A stretch of 13,556 nucleotides of DNA from Bacilli bacterium. Its GTDB lineage: Bacteria; Bacillota_I; Bacilli_A; RFN20; CAG-288. Position numbers and translations under genes: made by a program. Positions 1-7,388 of this stretch are shown one piece after another. Under the pieces are notes generated by a model. It saw only the letters and a program-made list of their open reading frames with translations. It made no database searches and was not told the DNA's origin. How positions within the stretch are numbered: the first letter of the stretch is position 1; each line of letters opens with the position of its first letter. The stretch lies in NCBI GenBank assembly GCA_028707375.1, contig JAQWCB010000010.1:1-13556 (forward strand). Reading direction: 5' to 3'.

Positions 1-1714
1 GATGAATTTGGCATCGTGGGAAATCTTTGTGATATGCCTCTTTCATCTCATACATTCGACTATCAGAAATAATATATACATCGTGACCAGTGTAATCCTT
101 ATTTTCTTGTGTTGAAGCGTATCCATAGCTTATGGAGATTTTATAGCTGGCATCTTTGCGGTCATTAAATTTCTTTAAATCATCGTCAAATATCTCCAAT
201 ATTTCCTTTGTTTTCTCTAAATTATAGTCTTTTAGAATAACAAGAAATTCATCTCCGCCCATGCGAGCAACACATCCGTATTTTGAAAATCTTGTTTTCA
301 ATAAAGATGATAAGTTAACTAATAACTGATCGCCTTGCAAATGTCCTTGTGTATCATTGACAATTTTCAAATTGTTCACATCGATAGATATTACTGAATA
401 AACTTTATGCTTTTCATCCAAATCCTGCATATATTTTACTGCTGTAGTGCGGTTAGCAAGATTAGTAAGAAAATCGACATAGGCCAACTTTGCCAGTGAA
501 TCATATTCACCTTTCTCATATAGATAATCGATGATAGAAATAAAATAACTACCTATTAAAAATAATGTTAAAATAACGCTGGTCAGAGGCAAAATATAGG
601 TTGAATTAAGGGGAACCACTGAATCATTTGAGCCAAATTCTGAAAAGATAATACCGATAAATGAACCGAGCGCAAAAGCAAAGAAACCAATAGACAGCAT
701 AATATTGCTCTGATTAACTTTCCTTTTTACCCAGCGCTTGATAATCAAATAGAGAATATAGAAAACTAGCAATCCATCAAAGGTATGGAATATTGGTAAA
801 AATTCTGGATAGTAAAAAAGGTGATTTAGCGAAAGAACTGTCGCAATGAAAAATAGAAGGATATTAACTCCTAAAAGAACAATCCAAATATTTTTATCCT
901 TTTTATCATCCTTAGCATACTTCCAAAAATACATAAGTAGAGGTATCGTCATTAAAAAGAAAACAATATATTCTAGGTACGTATCAAATAATTCGTTTTT
1001 ATTAAAAAGTAAAATAATTCGCGAGTTGCACGCTATCCATGTCCCCAACATCAATAAAAAAGCACCGATAGAAAATGTATTTCTCCCCGACATCTTCTTT
1101 CCATATAAAGTCAAAGCTAAACCAATAGATATAATGCTGACTGAAATAATGAAAAAACTACTGAACACCGATATGAATTTAGTTTTAAGTATATATGAAA
1201 ATATCTCGACTGTCGGCCCCATATATATTTGTTCAATATAGCGATAGGAGTAAGTTATTGTAGCCATTATTTCAATTCTTAATTCCTTGCCACCATATTC
1301 TTGCCCAAGGTCAATAATATTTAAATTAGTCGGAACTAAATCATTCGATTCATAGTAATCCATGCCATATTCATAGATGGAAGAATCATTGATGTACGCT
1401 TCAACCGTTGATTGATATGTATAAAAAGCAATCGACAATTGCTTAGTCTCAGTATCCGAAGGAATTATATTCGTAAGGATAACTTTTTTACCAGGCTTAA
1501 TCTCATGCATACTGAAAGTATCTATAGCCTGATGCTCATAGGTCGAACCATCAACTTGAATCGTCCAATCATCGTTCCAAACGTGACAAGCATAAGTATT
1601 TTGAAAACCCATAATAGCAAAAAGCGATGCAAAGAAAACACCGATTAGAATAAAAATAATTCCAATTGTCTCAAAAATAAATTTCCACCGCAGTTGTTTT
1701 TCGTTGATTTTCAT
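1..1714 (-). CDS. Membrane-bound diguanylate cyclase (GGDEF protein), 3' end cut by window
   Basis: Predicted to make cyclic di-GMP from two GTP at the inner face of the membrane, in response to an external signal. The 571 visible residues, translated by hand, show an N-terminal membrane anchor (about 12-36), an extracytoplasmic beta-rich domain (about 40-170), about seven hydrophobic segments between 175 and 396, and a GGDEF domain from about 405. This layout resembles 7TMR-DISM sensor cyclases. GGDEF residues are intact: DFLTNLANR at 414-422, metal-binding D445 in SIDVNNLK, N453/D454 before QGH, and MGGDEF at 485-490. The inhibitory RxxD site is replaced by SKYG (477-480), so product inhibition at that site is unlikely. 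The chosen ATG has a GAGG Shine-Dalgarno nine bases upstream. The frame is open at the left edge, and the conserved MYEMK near 554-558 suggests only a few residues are missing. It follows jetC but probably has its own promoter. The signal sensed is unknown. Confidence 0.93.
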   Translation of the reverse strand, partial: MKINEKQLRWKFIFETIGIIFILIGVFFASLFAIMGFQNTYACHVWNDDWTIQVDGSTYEHQAIDTFSMHEIKPGKKVILTNIIPSDTETKQLSIAFYTYQSTVEAYINDSSIYEYGMDYYESNDLVPTNLNIIDLGQEYGGKELRIEIMATITYSYRYIEQIYMGPTVEIFSYILKTKFISVFSSFFIISVSIISIGLALTLYGKKMSGRNTFSIGAFLLMLGTWIACNSRIILLFNKNELFDTYLEYIVFFLMTIPLLMYFWKYAKDDKKDKNIWIVLLGVNILLFFIATVLSLNHLFYYPEFLPIFHTFDGLLVFYILYLIIKRWVKRKVNQSNIMLSIGFFAFALGSFIGIIFSEFGSNDSVVPLNSTYILPLTSVILTLFLIGSYFISIIDYLYEKGEYDSLAKLAYVDFLTNLANRTTAVKYMQDLDEKHKVYSVISIDVNNLKIVNDTQGHLQGDQLLVNLSSLLKTRFSKYGCVARMGGDEFLVILKDYNLEKTKEILEIFDDDLKKFNDRKDASYKISISYGYASTQENKDYTGHDVYIISDSRMYEMKEAYHKDFPRCQIH

Positions 1715-1787
1715 TTGACAATTCCTCATTTTCAAACGGAATATCTAACTTCATATGTTTGTTATCTACTTTTATTAAAATACATAA

Positions 1788-1865: not shown

Positions 1866-4800
1866 TTATTTAACTTCCTCGTAACGATCAATGTATGAAC
1901 GATTTTTCTTGTTGTCGTGAATCGAGACCAAAACTAAATCAACTTCCGAAGAAAGATCTCTGAGCTTTTCCGAAGGTGTCGATAGAATAGCTTGAAGTCC
2001 AAAGCTTCTAAGCAAACCAACCGCCTCCTTAATTCTAGCTCCATCCATCTTAGAGAAAGCTTCATCAAAAATAACTAATCTAATACTGTCAGAATTTGGT
2101 TCGTTAGTTCGATATAATTGAGCAAACGAAGCCAAGATAGAAATATAAAAAGGAGTTTGAGTTTCACCTCCTGACTGTCTTTTGAAGGTTCGAGCCAACG
2201 ACGATGCATTGTTATCACCTCTCTTGACCAGCAAATCAAAAACTAAATATGTACGATAATCGGTGAATTTCTCTATATTTTCAGCAATTTGAGATCTCAC
2301 ATCGCCTCGACTGTCTGTCGATTCAGAAATCATACTGAACAAATTGTTCATAACCTCAGAATATTTTTCCAAATATTCATTTTCTGAATCACCAATATTC
2401 AAAAGTAAATCATCCATTATCATATTGTAATAATCGAGATAATCCTTGTTGGGTTCAACCGAAAATTTATATGAATCTCTTCCAAATTTAACGCTTTCCA
2501 GCGCTTGATTAAGCTCATCTATCTGCGTTGAAATTTTTTCAAAAGATGTCCGTAATTTGAAAATAAAATCATCCTTGAACTCTTCAATAGCCTTTTTGTG
2601 GGCACTCTCAATCTTCTCCAAGTAACTTGGAAGTAAAACTTGGGAAAGATTATCCAATTCCTTATCGAAATCACTATTGTCATCTTCCAAAGTTATGTCG
2701 TAACTCAGATTGTAGGATGCAACGTATTTCGAGCGCAAATCCATCAATTTGGCCTTGTAATTTTTCATTTTATTTTGAGTTTGAACATAGTGTGATTGAG
2801 CCTGTTGCTTTATTTGTTTTAGCGGAAGATTCTCTGCTGCATTGTCAAAGAAAGGAGCATATTTTTCCTCAACCATTTTCGGATCGTAATCCAATAATTT
2901 CTCGCCCATAAAAGTCAAAGAAGCGTTCTTAGCAGGAATCAGTTCTTCCTTCAATGATTTATTCTGATTTTCAAGTCCGCCTTTTTCCACGAGTAAGTTT
3001 TCTTTTTCTGTTGCTAAAGTTTTGATATCTTCATCAATTGAAGCAATCTTCTCATCATAGGCTGCCACCTCTGATAGATCACCTTCATCCATCTGTTCAT
3101 TCAATCTAGCAATCTGTTCATTCAATTCATCAACCTTGACACCTTCATCCACATCACTGACAAAGGTATGACATTGTGAAGAATTCAAGACTTCAAGTTT
3201 AGCAATTTGACTAAAGTAATTTAAAATATCGTTGTACTTTTCCAATTGATTATTTATCTTCGAAAATTCATTTTTCTTCGCTAAGGTAGTAGCCTGATCA
3301 AGCTTGGTCCCAATATAACTGACGTCAGCCTTGCGCTGATTCAGATAGAAGGAAGCATAACTGCGGTATCCCGTACAGTTAGGAAGCAAGCCATTGCCTG
3401 AATTTCTTGCCTCACTAAAAGTTTCACATCTTTTAACTCTCCCCAACAAAAAGTTCGTGTAAGCCTGCGCTCCTTTATGCTTAGTTTTAATAACTTCCGC
3501 AACGGATCCATCATCTGCTATAAAATTTTTAGAAATCAATTTCTCGGCATCGATAATTGAAACATAATAGAAGCCATACTCCTTACAAATACGCGCTAAA
3601 AGTTTAGAAGCCTCCTCATAATATTCATTTTCAACAAACAGATTGAATTTTTGATTGTAAATAAAAGCTTCGATTGCGTTGGTCCAGCGTGACTCGGTGA
3701 TATCAACTAAATCACAATAAGTGGAAACTGTCGCAAAGGAATGAGACTCTCTAAGTTGAGCCTGCAAAGATGAACGCACCTGCAAATATGTTTGATTGAA
3801 AGGCTTATGACCTGCGTTAATCTGCGATATCTCGCTGTCGATGGCATCCCTTTTTGATCCTAAACTATACACTGAGTTTTCAAGCATATGCACCATTTTT
3901 ATAGAAGTAAAATGCAATGTATTCATCGCGCTCTGAAATTCAGTAATATCCTCGCCCTTGATATCGTGCGAAGTTAATTTCTTCTTAACATTTTCGGCTA
4001 GCTCAATAAATTCACTCGACTCGTCTTTGAACTCCTCAAGAAGATCATTCTCCTCTTCGCTTAAAAAAGCTACGTCTATCTGAGCTAAACGATTGGAAAG
4101 CGAAGACAGTTTAACTAAATAATCATCGGCCAAATTCGTTAATGTTTCTGAAATATATTGATAATTGTTTTCTAAATGTGTAAGTCGCTCCGTGATTTTT
4201 TCCTTTTTATTAGCCAAGGCGGTCGACAAAGAAAATCCAGCTGATCCAATCTTCTTAGCAAAATAACTTTCTTTCTCACTTCTGAGATCTGCAGTTTCTA
4301 CATCATTTTCGTGAAGTGAATTAACTATTTCCGCAATCCTTATTTTATTGTTCTCATATCTTTCTTTGTATTTGTCCAATTCAAGTTTATAAGTTTCATA
4401 ATTAGCGCGATTTGCGACATAGTCCGCTAATTTTAATCCATCTTTAACATCTTGAAATTCATTGTAAGCCGACTTTATTTTTTCCAAAGAATCGATCTTA
4501 GTCTGAATCTTTTTGGCCTCTAACTCCAACAACTTATACTGCTCAATATTTGTTCGCATTGGAGCAATATCAATATTGTAATCAACATCGCAGACAAACT
4601 CCGTGATGAAAGAAGATATATTTGTTATTGGAGAAAAGGATACAGCCTTTTTAAAAAGGGAGAAATATTTATCAGGCAAATTGCCCAACTTCTCACTGAT
4701 AAATTGCTGATAAAGGATATTTGTCTCAAAGAATTTGTACTCGCTCGACTTATATGAATCACTAAAGACCTGCATAAGTTCCTTATACGTCAAAGGGCGA

Positions 4801-5249
4801 GGCATTTCATTGTCGAGCAACTCAGAGTTTGTAAACTTATTGCTTGGAAAAGCTGAATTCAAATAAAAGAAATGATGCGTTTCTGAATCATCATCAAAGC
4901 AATCAAAAACAATCCCCAAAGTAAAAACTTTCTGCGTTTTATCATCAGTAATTTCAAGGGCGATATATGAAGTAAAACGTCCCGGTCGAAGACACATGAC
5001 TTGTCCTTCCTTAGTCTCTCCCGTTTCGCAGCGCAAGTAACCTTTTAAGGTACGTCCAGTCCGATCGTTAGCAGCTTTATTGAAATTTCTTCCGGAAGTA
5101 TCTCCCAAAAGAATAATTTGAATCGCATCAATAATAGTCGATTTACCCGTACCATTTGCTCCAGTTAAAAAAGTGATGTTCTTTATGTCGACTGTCTCAT
5201 TGGAAAATAAGTGCCAATTGATCAGGCGCAACTTTGATAAACTTTTCAT
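1866..5249 (-). CDS. jetC: SMC-type ATPase of a Wadjet/MksB-like complex (JetC-like)
   Basis: Predicted ATP-driven DNA motor of a condensin-like complex. In characterised Wadjet and MksBEF systems the homologous subunit dimerises at a hinge, folds its coiled coils and extrudes DNA loops with JetA and JetB. The 1127 residues show an N-terminal Walker A, GANGTGKST, at 30-38. Long helical stretches rich in E, K and L run about 235-480 and 650-1000. They flank a globular hinge-like region (about 505-650) with the W522-x-NAIE pattern. At the C-terminus are a signature SGGETQ (1026-1031), Walker B LVIFDE with D1062/E1063, and the D-loop SKMD (1066-1069). All ATPase motifs are intact. The SGGETQTPFY signature is more like JetC/MukB-type proteins than canonical SMC or Rad50. 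Its ATG overlaps the jetB stop by one base (TAATG) and has a strong AAGGAG site, so the two are translationally coupled. The family call comes from recognition of motifs and gene order, not from a search. Confidence 0.88.
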   Translation of the reverse strand: MKSLSKLRLINWHLFSNETVDIKNITFLTGANGTGKSTIIDAIQIILLGDTSGRNFNKAANDRTGRTLKGYLRCETGETKEGQVMCLRPGRFTSYIALEITDDKTQKVFTLGIVFDCFDDDSETHHFFYLNSAFPSNKFTNSELLDNEMPRPLTYKELMQVFSDSYKSSEYKFFETNILYQQFISEKLGNLPDKYFSLFKKAVSFSPITNISSFITEFVCDVDYNIDIAPMRTNIEQYKLLELEAKKIQTKIDSLEKIKSAYNEFQDVKDGLKLADYVANRANYETYKLELDKYKERYENNKIRIAEIVNSLHENDVETADLRSEKESYFAKKIGSAGFSLSTALANKKEKITERLTHLENNYQYISETLTNLADDYLVKLSSLSNRLAQIDVAFLSEEENDLLEEFKDESSEFIELAENVKKKLTSHDIKGEDITEFQSAMNTLHFTSIKMVHMLENSVYSLGSKRDAIDSEISQINAGHKPFNQTYLQVRSSLQAQLRESHSFATVSTYCDLVDITESRWTNAIEAFIYNQKFNLFVENEYYEEASKLLARICKEYGFYYVSIIDAEKLISKNFIADDGSVAEVIKTKHKGAQAYTNFLLGRVKRCETFSEARNSGNGLLPNCTGYRSYASFYLNQRKADVSYIGTKLDQATTLAKKNEFSKINNQLEKYNDILNYFSQIAKLEVLNSSQCHTFVSDVDEGVKVDELNEQIARLNEQMDEGDLSEVAAYDEKIASIDEDIKTLATEKENLLVEKGGLENQNKSLKEELIPAKNASLTFMGEKLLDYDPKMVEEKYAPFFDNAAENLPLKQIKQQAQSHYVQTQNKMKNYKAKLMDLRSKYVASYNLSYDITLEDDNSDFDKELDNLSQVLLPSYLEKIESAHKKAIEEFKDDFIFKLRTSFEKISTQIDELNQALESVKFGRDSYKFSVEPNKDYLDYYNMIMDDLLLNIGDSENEYLEKYSEVMNNLFSMISESTDSRGDVRSQIAENIEKFTDYRTYLVFDLLVKRGDNNASSLARTFKRQSGGETQTPFYISILASFAQLYRTNEPNSDSIRLVIFDEAFSKMDGARIKEAVGLLRSFGLQAILSTPSEKLRDLSSEVDLVLVSIHDNKKNRSYIDRYEEVK
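3091..3126 (-). repeat. Short direct repeat encoding a coiled-coil heptad
   Basis: A 15-base sequence occurs at 3091-3105 and again, exactly, at 3112-3126. The 21-base period equals seven codons. On the coding strand it gives two consecutive LNEQ-containing heptads in the second coiled coil of the JetC-like ATPase. A flanking 11-base repeat (3081-3091 and 3141-3151) encodes acidic DEG segments on both sides. This looks like a small tandem expansion within a coiled coil, which should be tolerated because the heptad phase is kept. Confidence 0.55.
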
Positions 5250-5926
5250 TATTCTTCTCCTTCATCTGATTTAGAAACATCAAACATCGTGTTGGATGAA
5301 TCTTGATTCGCGCTCTCTTTCTCGGCTTTTATATCTTCAATTGAATTATATAGCGAATTTAATTTAGCATTCGATATAACATATCGAATTGAAGGCAAAA
5401 TATAAAAGGCATAGAATGATTCCGAAAAAGAACGATCCGCAATAACAACGATGTTGTAAAATGCCAATTTGCGCAGTGATTGCGCAATAGTAAGACTAGA
5501 AATTCGCTTGGTTACACTTGTCAATCCCAATTCTTTGAGCAGCGATTTTATCGCGGTCGAATCCATATATATTTCATTAGCCGCTGGATTAGCACTCAAT
5601 TTATCTTCATAATAACTTCTCAAGGCATAAATGATTAAAGTTGTCACGCCATCAAGTTGAATTTTATTTGTCTCGTCATCTGAGGAAACAAAGATAACCC
5701 CATTCTCATCATCTTTAGAAATATCCATTCCCATATAGGAAAGATAGTCAATAAATAAATCAAAGTGGCGTTCAATGAATAAGTAGTTAGAATTGATTAC
5801 ATTCATATGTGTAACTTTAGAATAAACTCGGCGAACAATAAAGCAAGTAAAGAGCAAACTGCTTATCGTCTTGCGGAAAATATTTTGATCAGCCTTCGTT
5901 AATTTCTCAAACTCTTCAATAAACAT
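5249..5926 (-). CDS. jetB: JetB/MksE-like small condensin subunit (probable KITE protein)
   Basis: Predicted accessory subunit of the JetABC complex. In related systems it is a dimeric winged-helix (KITE) protein that binds the kleisin and contacts DNA. The 225 residues begin FIEEFEKLTKADQNIFRKTISSLL. They continue with Y48LFIERHFDLFIDYLSYMG and a central LDGVTTLIIYALRSYYEDK segment, a pattern familiar from JetB-type families (DUF4194/DUF6063-like) in Firmicutes. The last 25 or so residues are polar and acidic, probably disordered. The ATG lies one base after the jetA stop. Its Shine-Dalgarno (AAGAGG) is inside the last jetA codons, and its own stop overlaps the jetC start by one base. This fits coupled, stoichiometric synthesis. 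Size and position between jetA and jetC are the strongest evidence, since sequence conservation in this family is low. Confidence 0.75.
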   Translation of the reverse strand: MFIEEFEKLTKADQNIFRKTISSLLFTCFIVRRVYSKVTHMNVINSNYLFIERHFDLFIDYLSYMGMDISKDDENGVIFVSSDDETNKIQLDGVTTLIIYALRSYYEDKLSANPAANEIYMDSTAIKSLLKELGLTSVTKRISSLTIAQSLRKLAFYNIVVIADRSFSESFYAFYILPSIRYVISNAKLNSLYNSIEDIKAEKESANQDSSNTMFDVSKSDEGEE

Positions 5927-5927
5927 T

Positions 5928-7388
5928 TTAAATCCTCTTATCTTTCTTGGTAAAACGATAATTTGGTACTAGAAAATTCCCTAATTTTGTCGTTTCACCT
6001 ATTTTTTCTATATCGTAAAAAAGACTGCCAAACTCGGCTCTAACAATTCCTAAAATGAGTAGAACCAATTCATCAAGACTCGTTATTTTTAAATCCTTGG
6101 TCTCAATAATTTTCCGATTACCAAAAGCCTTCAACATAAACTCTTCCACTGCTTGCAACGAAAAGTTATTAACCTCGTTCTCCAAAAAATCATTCATCAA
6201 GGAATCATCACCGATAAATTCATCTTCAAGCGGCAAAGGATCCGTCTCAATCCTTGCGGTTCTTCGAATCGGCATTGTCAAAGAATTAGAATTGATAAAA
6301 CCTTGACTCCAAAGGGATATGGTTTGACTCGCCTGAGCCAATAGAGGTATTTTTTCTGTATCATTTTTCACATCGTATGGCGAAGAAACAATCTGTTTGG
6401 CTAACTCAACAATAATTGTATCAAGTTTACCCTTGATTGACTTGTCAGAATTTGATAAGAAATTTATTTTTCTCTGCACCGAGTGAACATAATTAGCATT
6501 AGCCTTATCAATATCGTCAAAAGAATCAGATAAGCGAGAAAATTTATTGATGGTCTCTTGCAACATCTTATATATAATCTCGTGAAGCTCTGAGGCTTTC
6601 AAGTGTCGATAATTAGTGTCATAAGCCGCTTGATTAACAAGTTTGCCCATGATTCGTGAATCGCGTTGCCACTTGGTCAAGATTTTCACAACGGGGATAG
6701 CATAGAGAGAAAGCGAATCATATGTCTTCATTGGATGATAAATCTTATCACTGACTTCGCTCCGAAAGACATCAAAATGTTGTCTTAAGACTTCATTTGG
6801 TTCAAATTCGTTGGTTAATTTATGTCCAAAGACACAGATTGAATGGTGAAGCAAAGTAATGTTGAGTTCCAGTTCGTCAGCATTTTTATTAGCTGATATC
6901 AAAGATCTAAACATATAATCATCCTCTTTTTCATCTTCCATCGCTAACTCTGAATAAGATTGATGAACCAGAGGAATATAAAGCGAGGTATCCGATGTCA
7001 AATCCGATATATATTGAAGCATTTTTATTGAATACGAAGGTAAGAAAATATAGTCAGTGCCTTTAACATTTTCCACTTCAATCCATCCTGTTGACACCAA
7101 TTTGCGAAAGATATAATTAATCTTGGAAGACACTTCGGAATCTTCGACATCGTAATTTACGGTTTCTTCATCGCTTCGATCATCCATCTGGTCCAGTTTG
7201 ACATCAAAAAGCGACATGATTTCTTCACCATGTTCGCGCAAAGCATTTATATAATCAGATTTTTTAATGTGCGTTTTATATGTTTTTAGTGTCTCAAACA
7301 ATGTCAATAAACTAAAACTATAAACCGCTTTATATTTCCGTGATAATACCGAGAAGAAATTCTCGGGTAACTTTTCAAATAAATTCAA
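5928..7388 (-). CDS. jetA: JetA/MksF-like kleisin subunit (DUF5716-like)
   Basis: Predicted kleisin of an SMC complex: it bridges the two JetC heads and carries JetB. The 486 residues start MNLFEKLPENFFSVLSRKYKAVYSFSLLTLF, which strongly resembles the DUF5716 family annotated as Wadjet JetA in Firmicutes. A conserved-looking KLVSTGWIEVE segment (96-106) fits the winged-helix part. An acidic linker lies at 66-86. A long helical middle (about 150-345) is followed by a linker and a helical C-terminal region (about 395-486), where a kleisin would meet the SMC head. The start codon is TTG at 7388-7386. It is chosen because a TGAGGT Shine-Dalgarno lies seven bases upstream and the protein begins exactly where family members do. 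It is the first gene of the jetABC unit, 123 bases after the acyltransferase gene and behind its own promoter. No nuclease domain is fused to it. Confidence 0.82.
   Translation of the reverse strand: MNLFEKLPENFFSVLSRKYKAVYSFSLLTLFETLKTYKTHIKKSDYINALREHGEEIMSLFDVKLDQMDDRSDEETVNYDVEDSEVSSKINYIFRKLVSTGWIEVENVKGTDYIFLPSYSIKMLQYISDLTSDTSLYIPLVHQSYSELAMEDEKEDDYMFRSLISANKNADELELNITLLHHSICVFGHKLTNEFEPNEVLRQHFDVFRSEVSDKIYHPMKTYDSLSLYAIPVVKILTKWQRDSRIMGKLVNQAAYDTNYRHLKASELHEIIYKMLQETINKFSRLSDSFDDIDKANANYVHSVQRKINFLSNSDKSIKGKLDTIIVELAKQIVSSPYDVKNDTEKIPLLAQASQTISLWSQGFINSNSLTMPIRRTARIETDPLPLEDEFIGDDSLMNDFLENEVNNFSLQAVEEFMLKAFGNRKIIETKDLKITSLDELVLLILGIVRAEFGSLFYDIEKIGETTKLGNFLVPNYRFTKKDKRI

Follow-up and report, generated by a model that had tools for sequence, protein, structure and literature searches.

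The window analysed here is the whole of contig JAQWCB010000010.1 (C29; 13,556 nt) from a Bacilli bacterium (GenBank assembly GCA_028707375.1; GTDB lineage Bacillota_I; Bacilli_A; RFN20; CAG-288). It carries a complete type I Wadjet core, jetA, jetB and jetC, in the gene order of that system and without the nuclease gene jetD anywhere on the contig (Table 1). JetA matches the Pfam family JetA (PF18982) with 217.8 bits (2.6e-64) over profile positions 11 to 434 of 434, and its best PADLOC model is JetA1 (PDLC00449; 301 bits, 3e-90). JetB is matched by DUF4194 (PF13835; 58.7 bits, 7.9e-16) in Pfam and best by JetB1 (203.6 bits, 7.4e-61) in PADLOC. For JetC the best PADLOC model is JetC1 (PDLC00519; 1051 bits, E = 0), which spans residues 1 to 1125; its head matches the Pfam families SbcC_Walker_B (1.1e-24) and AAA_29 (4.8e-19), and the nearest solved chains are the JetC structures 9qxt, 8as8 and 8dk2. 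The genes jetB and jetC overlap by one base. The three ATPase motifs that are intact in the window are also preserved across its order, where Walker A, SGGE and DE[AGVCS][FY] each occur in 83/83 JetC proteins of at least 1100 aa taken from the 95 rows of nuclease-less loci. The original prediction, which had named three coupled genes with the sizes, order and motifs of jetA, jetB and jetC and had seen no JetD next to them, is thus borne out by coordinates, Pfam and PADLOC alike.

Table 1. Features of the jetABC locus, in positions of the window
Feature	Position	Strand	Remarks
jetA, kleisin subunit	5928..7388	-	486 aa, TTG start
jetB, KITE (MukE-like) subunit	5249..5926	-	225 aa
jetC, SMC (structural maintenance of chromosomes) ATPase subunit	1866..5249	-	1127 aa
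Walker A of JetC, GANGTGKS, residues 30-37	5139..5162	-	intact
ABC signature of JetC, SGGE, residues 1026-1029	2163..2174	-	intact
Walker B/catalytic Glu of JetC, DEAF, residues 1062-1065	2055..2066	-	intact
7TMR-DISM + GGDEF membrane protein	2-1735	-	130 bases beyond jetC; runs off contig

The source assembly of the window is fragmentary (1.08 Mb in 194 contigs, 65.8% complete), so that a missing jetD could by itself be an assembly gap. Two observations rule this out. JetA was found in 23/23 genomes of the window's family, three of which (G007, G008 and G019) have it only in fragments or as an incomplete copy, while a model search for JetD_C (the Toprim domain DUF2220, which JetD carries with DUF3322) found it in 0/23; and at the same-genus loci L086 to L088 the sequence continues beyond jetC into other genes, none of which is jetD. 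Absence of JetD is therefore a trait of the lineage and not an assembly gap. Beyond the site of the membrane cyclase gene, where the original prediction had left room for a jetD, the same-genus relatives carry none, and nothing pointed to a recent deletion.

The JetD model is usable in the order, because 22 of its 279 genomes score above the JetD_C cut-off. In 12/12 JetD loci opened in the order (the JetD of G037 was left out), JetD adjoins a JetC of its own, from which we conclude that the JetD proteins of the order belong with their own Wadjets and not with the nuclease-less operon. This includes G142 and G146, which hold a JetD without a second JetA and were considered as possible sources of an unlinked effector: in each, JetD abuts its own JetC. 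The search for a JetD elsewhere in the genome, proposed with the original prediction, thus led to none in the family and, in the order, to separate Wadjets wherever a locus was opened. Within the 95 nuclease-less loci of the order the only match to JetD was one of 9e-4 in L132, which is the N-terminus of Tex instead. All three core genes were found in 91 of these 95 loci, on the same strand in 91/91, and in 81 of the 91 at least 1.5 kb of sequence could be read past jetC.

To describe the distribution of the operon, we considered the 279 genomes of the order, with family sizes counted from the handle order and genomes without a match not all listed. JetA occurs in 121 of them, namely in 53/55 genomes outside the family labelled f4 and in 68/224 within it. 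Counts of genomes without JetA are upper bounds, since the JetA model fails on some loci: G142 and G146 each carry, next to their JetD, another JetC for which no JetA match was obtained. Of the 129 listed JetA places, 120 were retrieved (all but those of G033, G253, G252, G254 and G251 and the second copies in G145, G132, G154 and G151), and genes were found in them by models made from the window's proteins. A tree of JetA, JetB and JetC was then built from 120 rows, for which the loci L179 and L197 were too short. One side of the tree holds 93 loci without JetD together with a single jetABCD locus from outside. In this nuclease-less clade, families f2, f3, f5 and f8 are each coherent, as are f1 and f4 with the exception of G109, and genera with several rows group together. 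The G109 row, from f4, lies on a 5 kb contig and sits within f1; it is perhaps a contamination. The outside locus, L081:624-7345, comes from a Bacillota record, presumably of termite-gut origin to judge from the pattern of its isolate name; its JetABC stands closest to this clade, and it possibly pictures the ancestral state.

The other side of the tree comprises 26 loci dispersed across f2 and f4, 15 of which carry JetD. These are ordinary, patchy Wadjets, separate from the nuclease-less operon and sometimes present in the same genome. Eight genomes carry both kinds in copies of sufficient length. When these genomes are compared in pairs, the JetC of the nuclease-less operon is the better conserved of the two in 28/28 pairs, which are not independent of one another.

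The genes around the nuclease-less operon are also kept within the larger families, with many of the loci cut by contig ends. In f4, jetABC is preceded by rsmB, rlmN, a PP2C phosphatase gene, prkC, rsgA, rpe and thiN (named by reading of their sequences; the six that were counted are present in 23 to 34 of 45 loci) and followed by glgC/glgD (one cluster; 34/45), glgA (32/45) and leuS (26/45). In f1 and f2, an amylase-family gene and plsC lie upstream (22/36 loci each), and glgC/glgD/glgA downstream (22/36). Families f3, f5 and f8 have common neighbours of their own, and no neighbour gene is common to all families. Thus, the nuclease-less jetABC is inherited along the taxonomy, with neighbours retained in the larger families. 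The comparison of neighbourhoods suggested with the original prediction gave a conserved absence of jetD across related loci.

Selection on the three genes is correspondingly strong. In 10 of 11 close pairs, the ratio of nonsynonymous to synonymous substitution rates (dN/dS) of jetA, jetB and jetC lies between 0.00 and 0.10, and in the eleventh between 0.19 and 0.20, a range like that of LeuS, PrkC and GlgA. In addition, JetC identity correlates with the identities of six neighbours (r = 0.69 to 0.91). The nuclease-less jetABC is therefore under strong purifying selection, constrained like the housekeeping genes nearby; it is not a remnant, nor is it a mobile island.

The original prediction had also called for a search for the canonical condensin Smc-ScpAB. 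With curated cut-offs, ScpA was found in 0/279 genomes of the order (one sub-threshold match, in G041; ScpB was not searched) and full-length Smc (TIGR02168) likewise in 0/279, the window's incomplete genome being included in both counts. The same models detected ScpA in 9/14 and Smc in 10/14 control genomes, and in a sample of the class they scored above cut-off in 97/198 (ScpA) and 95/198 (Smc) genomes. Below the cut-off, matches to the Smc model occur in 245/279 genomes of the order. We opened those of five JetA-negative genomes (G068, G188, G163, G090 and G180) as candidates for a divergent Smc, and none has an SMC domain by Pfam: they correspond to a glycosyltransferase, a BspA-repeat protein, a phage tail protein and two proteins without an informative match. 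Within the window's family, the SMC_hinge model is above cut-off in 9/23 genomes. As a hidden Smc these matches can be set aside in 8 of the 9 places, which lie inside the jetC of the locus; the ninth, in G007, is a 673-aa open frame that begins another contig, 9 kb long. Some JetC proteins of f1, such as those of L027 and L028, have a hinge above the Pfam SMC_hinge cut-off (25 to 31 bits), unlike the JetC of the window.

The class-wide sample, drawn evenly, consists of 198 genomes, 24 from the window's own order and 174 from others; JetA was found in 54, and both JetA and ScpA in 10. Of the 33 genomes of other orders with JetA and without ScpA, 31 have no JetD above cut-off, compared with 3 of the 10 that have both (Fisher p = 1e-4, which is descriptive only because the genomes are related). 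The same 33 genomes show at most a weak match to the Smc model (best, 5e-16). We opened 14 of them over the whole operon, and the 14 loci, from families f10, f16, f26, f27 and f28, carry jetA, jetB and jetC with no JetD within about 2 kb past jetC. Family f16 is the Acholeplasmataceae (Alteracholeplasma palmae J233, Mariniplasma anaerobium, Haploplasma axanthum) and includes G364, which we take to be Acholeplasma laidlawii PG-8A. The PADLOC Wadjet models match the proteins of G364 as well as those of the window.

In trees, the nuclease-less sets stand apart from one another, among JetD-bearing relatives. Approximately unbiased (AU) tests on 32 rows under LG+G4 rejected a single clade of the own order with f16, f26-28 and f10 (p = 1e-34), and likewise the own order with f16 (p = 8e-41), the own order with f26-28 (p = 7e-74), f16 with f26-28 (p = 7e-9) and f16 with f26-28 and f10 (p = 9e-5); f26-28 with f10 was borderline (p = 0.047). 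A placement of L081 outside the own-order clade was not rejected (p = 0.376), and the trees put it inside. A single origin of the nuclease-less sets is thus rejected, and the starred branches of the trees require the JetD label to change three times or more. We infer these changes to be losses, a direction to which the AU tests are blind.

Given that a JetABC without JetD is present where the usual Smc-ScpAB is missing, the disarmed core has probably taken over chromosome folding. The explanation we favour, with a probability of about 0.72, is that JetABC is a Wadjet core minus JetD that has become a vertically inherited housekeeping complex and most likely acts as the SMC condensin of the cell. 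A type I Wadjet core would have lost JetD in the ancestor of the order, a loss being assumed here over JetD never having been present. JetC dimers bridged by JetA and JetB would hydrolyse ATP and reel chromosomal DNA into loops, and these loops would compact the nucleoid and help sister chromosomes to separate, by which JetABC would functionally replace the missing Smc-ScpAB. The same disarming and recruitment may have occurred convergently in other orders. Such a takeover of the condensin job has probably happened more than once in evolution; on balance we lean towards three or more such events within the class, each making a disarmed Wadjet the sole SMC condensin: one in the window's order, one in the Acholeplasmataceae (with Alteracholeplasma palmae and, if G364 is rightly assigned, Acholeplasma laidlawii among them) and one in f26-f28.

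The N-terminus of JetB may point the same way in some of the sets. The JetB of the window opens at its core domain, without the extension of about eight residues that is usual for JetB of JetABCD loci. When an extension is defined as at least five N-terminal residues, and the longest open frames are used, it is found in 20/23 rows with JetD, in 10/93 nuclease-less rows of the own order and in 0/8 rows of f10 and f26-28. As a reading of sequence, the short N-terminus in the own-order and f26-28 sets would fit a lost contact with JetD, which is only suggestive. We had also considered the IFDR motif of JetB, described in a review as the JetD contact, as a marker of JetD binding and dropped it, as it is absent even from the JetABCD loci here.

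However, several observations weigh against a condensin role or against its individual supports. For JetB, the extension is present in 14/14 rows of Acholeplasmataceae and in 11/11 Wadjet-clade rows without JetD, and the IFDR test says little, because JetABCD loci lack the motif too. As to the link between losing JetD and replacing Smc, 11 of the 26 Wadjet-clade loci have no detected JetD, some of them at contig ends (L174, L177, L180, L181, L182, L185, L199 and L202-L205, from the f4 genera g42 and g13); they either represent a further nuclease-less set of more recent origin or have divergent effectors. In f14, five JetABC loci lack JetD past jetC in genomes that have Smc and ScpA, so that loss of JetD does not require loss of Smc. 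These are L272-L276 (G326, G284, G342, G317 and G334); G317 and G334 also carry JetABCD elsewhere. Synteny is incomplete as well, in that 14 loci of f3, f5, f6, f7 and f8 have none of six checked neighbour genes. Within the window's own family, G011 holds an Smc fragment of 391 bits, below the cut-off. It lies on contig C55 (L082) as open frames of 635 aa and 229 aa, in a genome without ScpA, and is either a contamination or a decaying smc. Moreover, 156/224 genomes of f4 have no JetA at E <= 0.001, and 57/198 genomes of the class sample have neither ScpA nor JetA, so that these bacteria may be able to do without an SMC complex. Genomes with neither occur in f4 (e.g., G086, G097 and G070), f12, f19 and f23, and some are estimated to be 99 to 100% complete; they perhaps have no known condensin at all. 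Likewise, a Hi-C study of gut bacteria (PMC10197239) reports species without any known condensin.

Two alternatives draw on these points, and we consider both unlikely. JetABC might still serve in defence, recognizing small circular DNA and either passing it to an unlinked or unrecognized nuclease or silencing it by looping alone, a mode that has been proposed for Smc5/6 acting on viral circles. For each of the three subunits the best-scoring models are those of type I Wadjet defence, the f14 loci beside Smc-ScpAB would suit an accessory role, and compaction without cutting is given as a possible mode of restriction by Smc5/6 (PMC10586767). However, a complex found in every genome of its family, following the taxonomy and constrained like PrkC or LeuS is hardly what one expects of a defence system, and the order's Wadjets have a patchy distribution and diverge more quickly. 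The effector is likewise hard to place, with no neighbour gene shared by all families and JetD_C absent from the window's family. The original prediction had offered, next to a chromosomal condensin, a loop extruder with an unlinked or novel effector. That second option retains some plausibility, and what speaks against it is the lack of a universal neighbour and the position of JetD beside its own JetC. The condensin option, by comparison, gains support from the absence of JetD from the family and of Smc and ScpA above cut-offs from the order, from taxonomy, from synteny and from constraint, with the function itself read from these patterns.

According to the second alternative, which appears about as improbable as a role in defence, JetABC is an accessory chromosome or repair factor, acting on DNA ends, replication forks or prophage maintenance, in a group that lives without a condensin, which appears to hold for many sister genera. 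The many f4 genomes without JetA, in an order without ScpA or full-length Smc above cut-offs, make condensin-free chromosomes look viable, and the five weak Smc-model matches opened in JetA-negative genomes did not contain an SMC domain. Against this stand the full SMC-kleisin-KITE architecture of the complex, its near-universal presence outside f4 and the fact that genomes lacking Smc-ScpAB have time and again kept JetABC without JetD. Finally, that the operon is a Wadjet decaying after the loss of its nuclease, as the missing JetD and the notion that the toxic part of a defence system may go first could suggest, is highly improbable in view of the low dN/dS, the motifs intact in all 83 JetC proteins and the three genes kept together on one strand.

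How does a JetABC condensin compare with known systems? With type I Wadjets (JetABCD/MksBEFG/EptABCD) the window's operon shares the three core subunits, their order, the ATPase motifs and the nearest structures; it differs in that JetD is lacking from the operon and the family genomes, in its taxonomic instead of patchy distribution and in its conserved neighbours. MksBEF of Pseudomonas aeruginosa is related and has a chromosomal role: SMC and MksBEF both organize and segregate the chromosome of that species (PMC7485682). There, however, MksBEF coexists with SMC, in contrast to the situation here, where no Smc-ScpAB is found above cut-offs. At the sequence level, the JetB of the window scores 16.6 bits against Pfam MksE, below the cut-off of 27, and the JetB of G364 scores 29.4. 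MukBEF of enterobacteria belongs to a different sequence family; only its MukB N-terminal region model (PF04310) matches JetC, at residues 6 to 61 of the window's protein, with 29.4 bits at a cut-off of 23. With Smc-ScpAB, JetABC would share the presumed condensin job, and some JetC proteins of the family have a hinge that the Smc model recognizes above cut-off, in contrast to the lack of ScpA and full-length Smc above curated cut-offs in the order.

Precedents exist for the individual parts of this explanation. The usual list of bacterial condensins, as given for example in PMC10197239, comprises Smc-ScpAB, MukBEF and MksBEF, and according to a review Smc-ScpAB was apparently replaced by MukBEF in enterobacteria and their relatives. 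The origin of chromosome-segregation complexes from defence complexes is a speculation already in print (PMC10586767). Among the literature matches listed, by which subscription journals and preprints are mostly uncovered, none reports a Bacillota lineage whose only condensin is a JetABC lacking the nuclease. The parts are thus known, and their combination, breadth and convergence look new. If our explanation is true, a type I Wadjet core, as the only SMC complex that can be recognized there, would be a lineage-wide replacement for the condensin in whole families of Bacilli and apparently in the Acholeplasmataceae, the published speculation would gain several independent cases, and it is tempting to regard defence systems as a recurrent source of new chromosome-organizing machines. 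It would also call for caution with defence-finding models, which label jetABC as defence where it may be housekeeping. Since Acholeplasma is culturable, the condensin idea is directly testable.

The remaining genes of the window agree with the original description of a membrane cyclase on one side and lipid and glucan genes on the other. Upstream of jetA lie genes for a PlsC-like acyltransferase, an alpha-amylase-family protein, AcpS and two more proteins, one with a weak M16 match; on the other side is the GGDEF gene of Table 1. This gene looks like a local insertion in the window, since three same-genus relatives carry a different gene (cluster 14) at its site.

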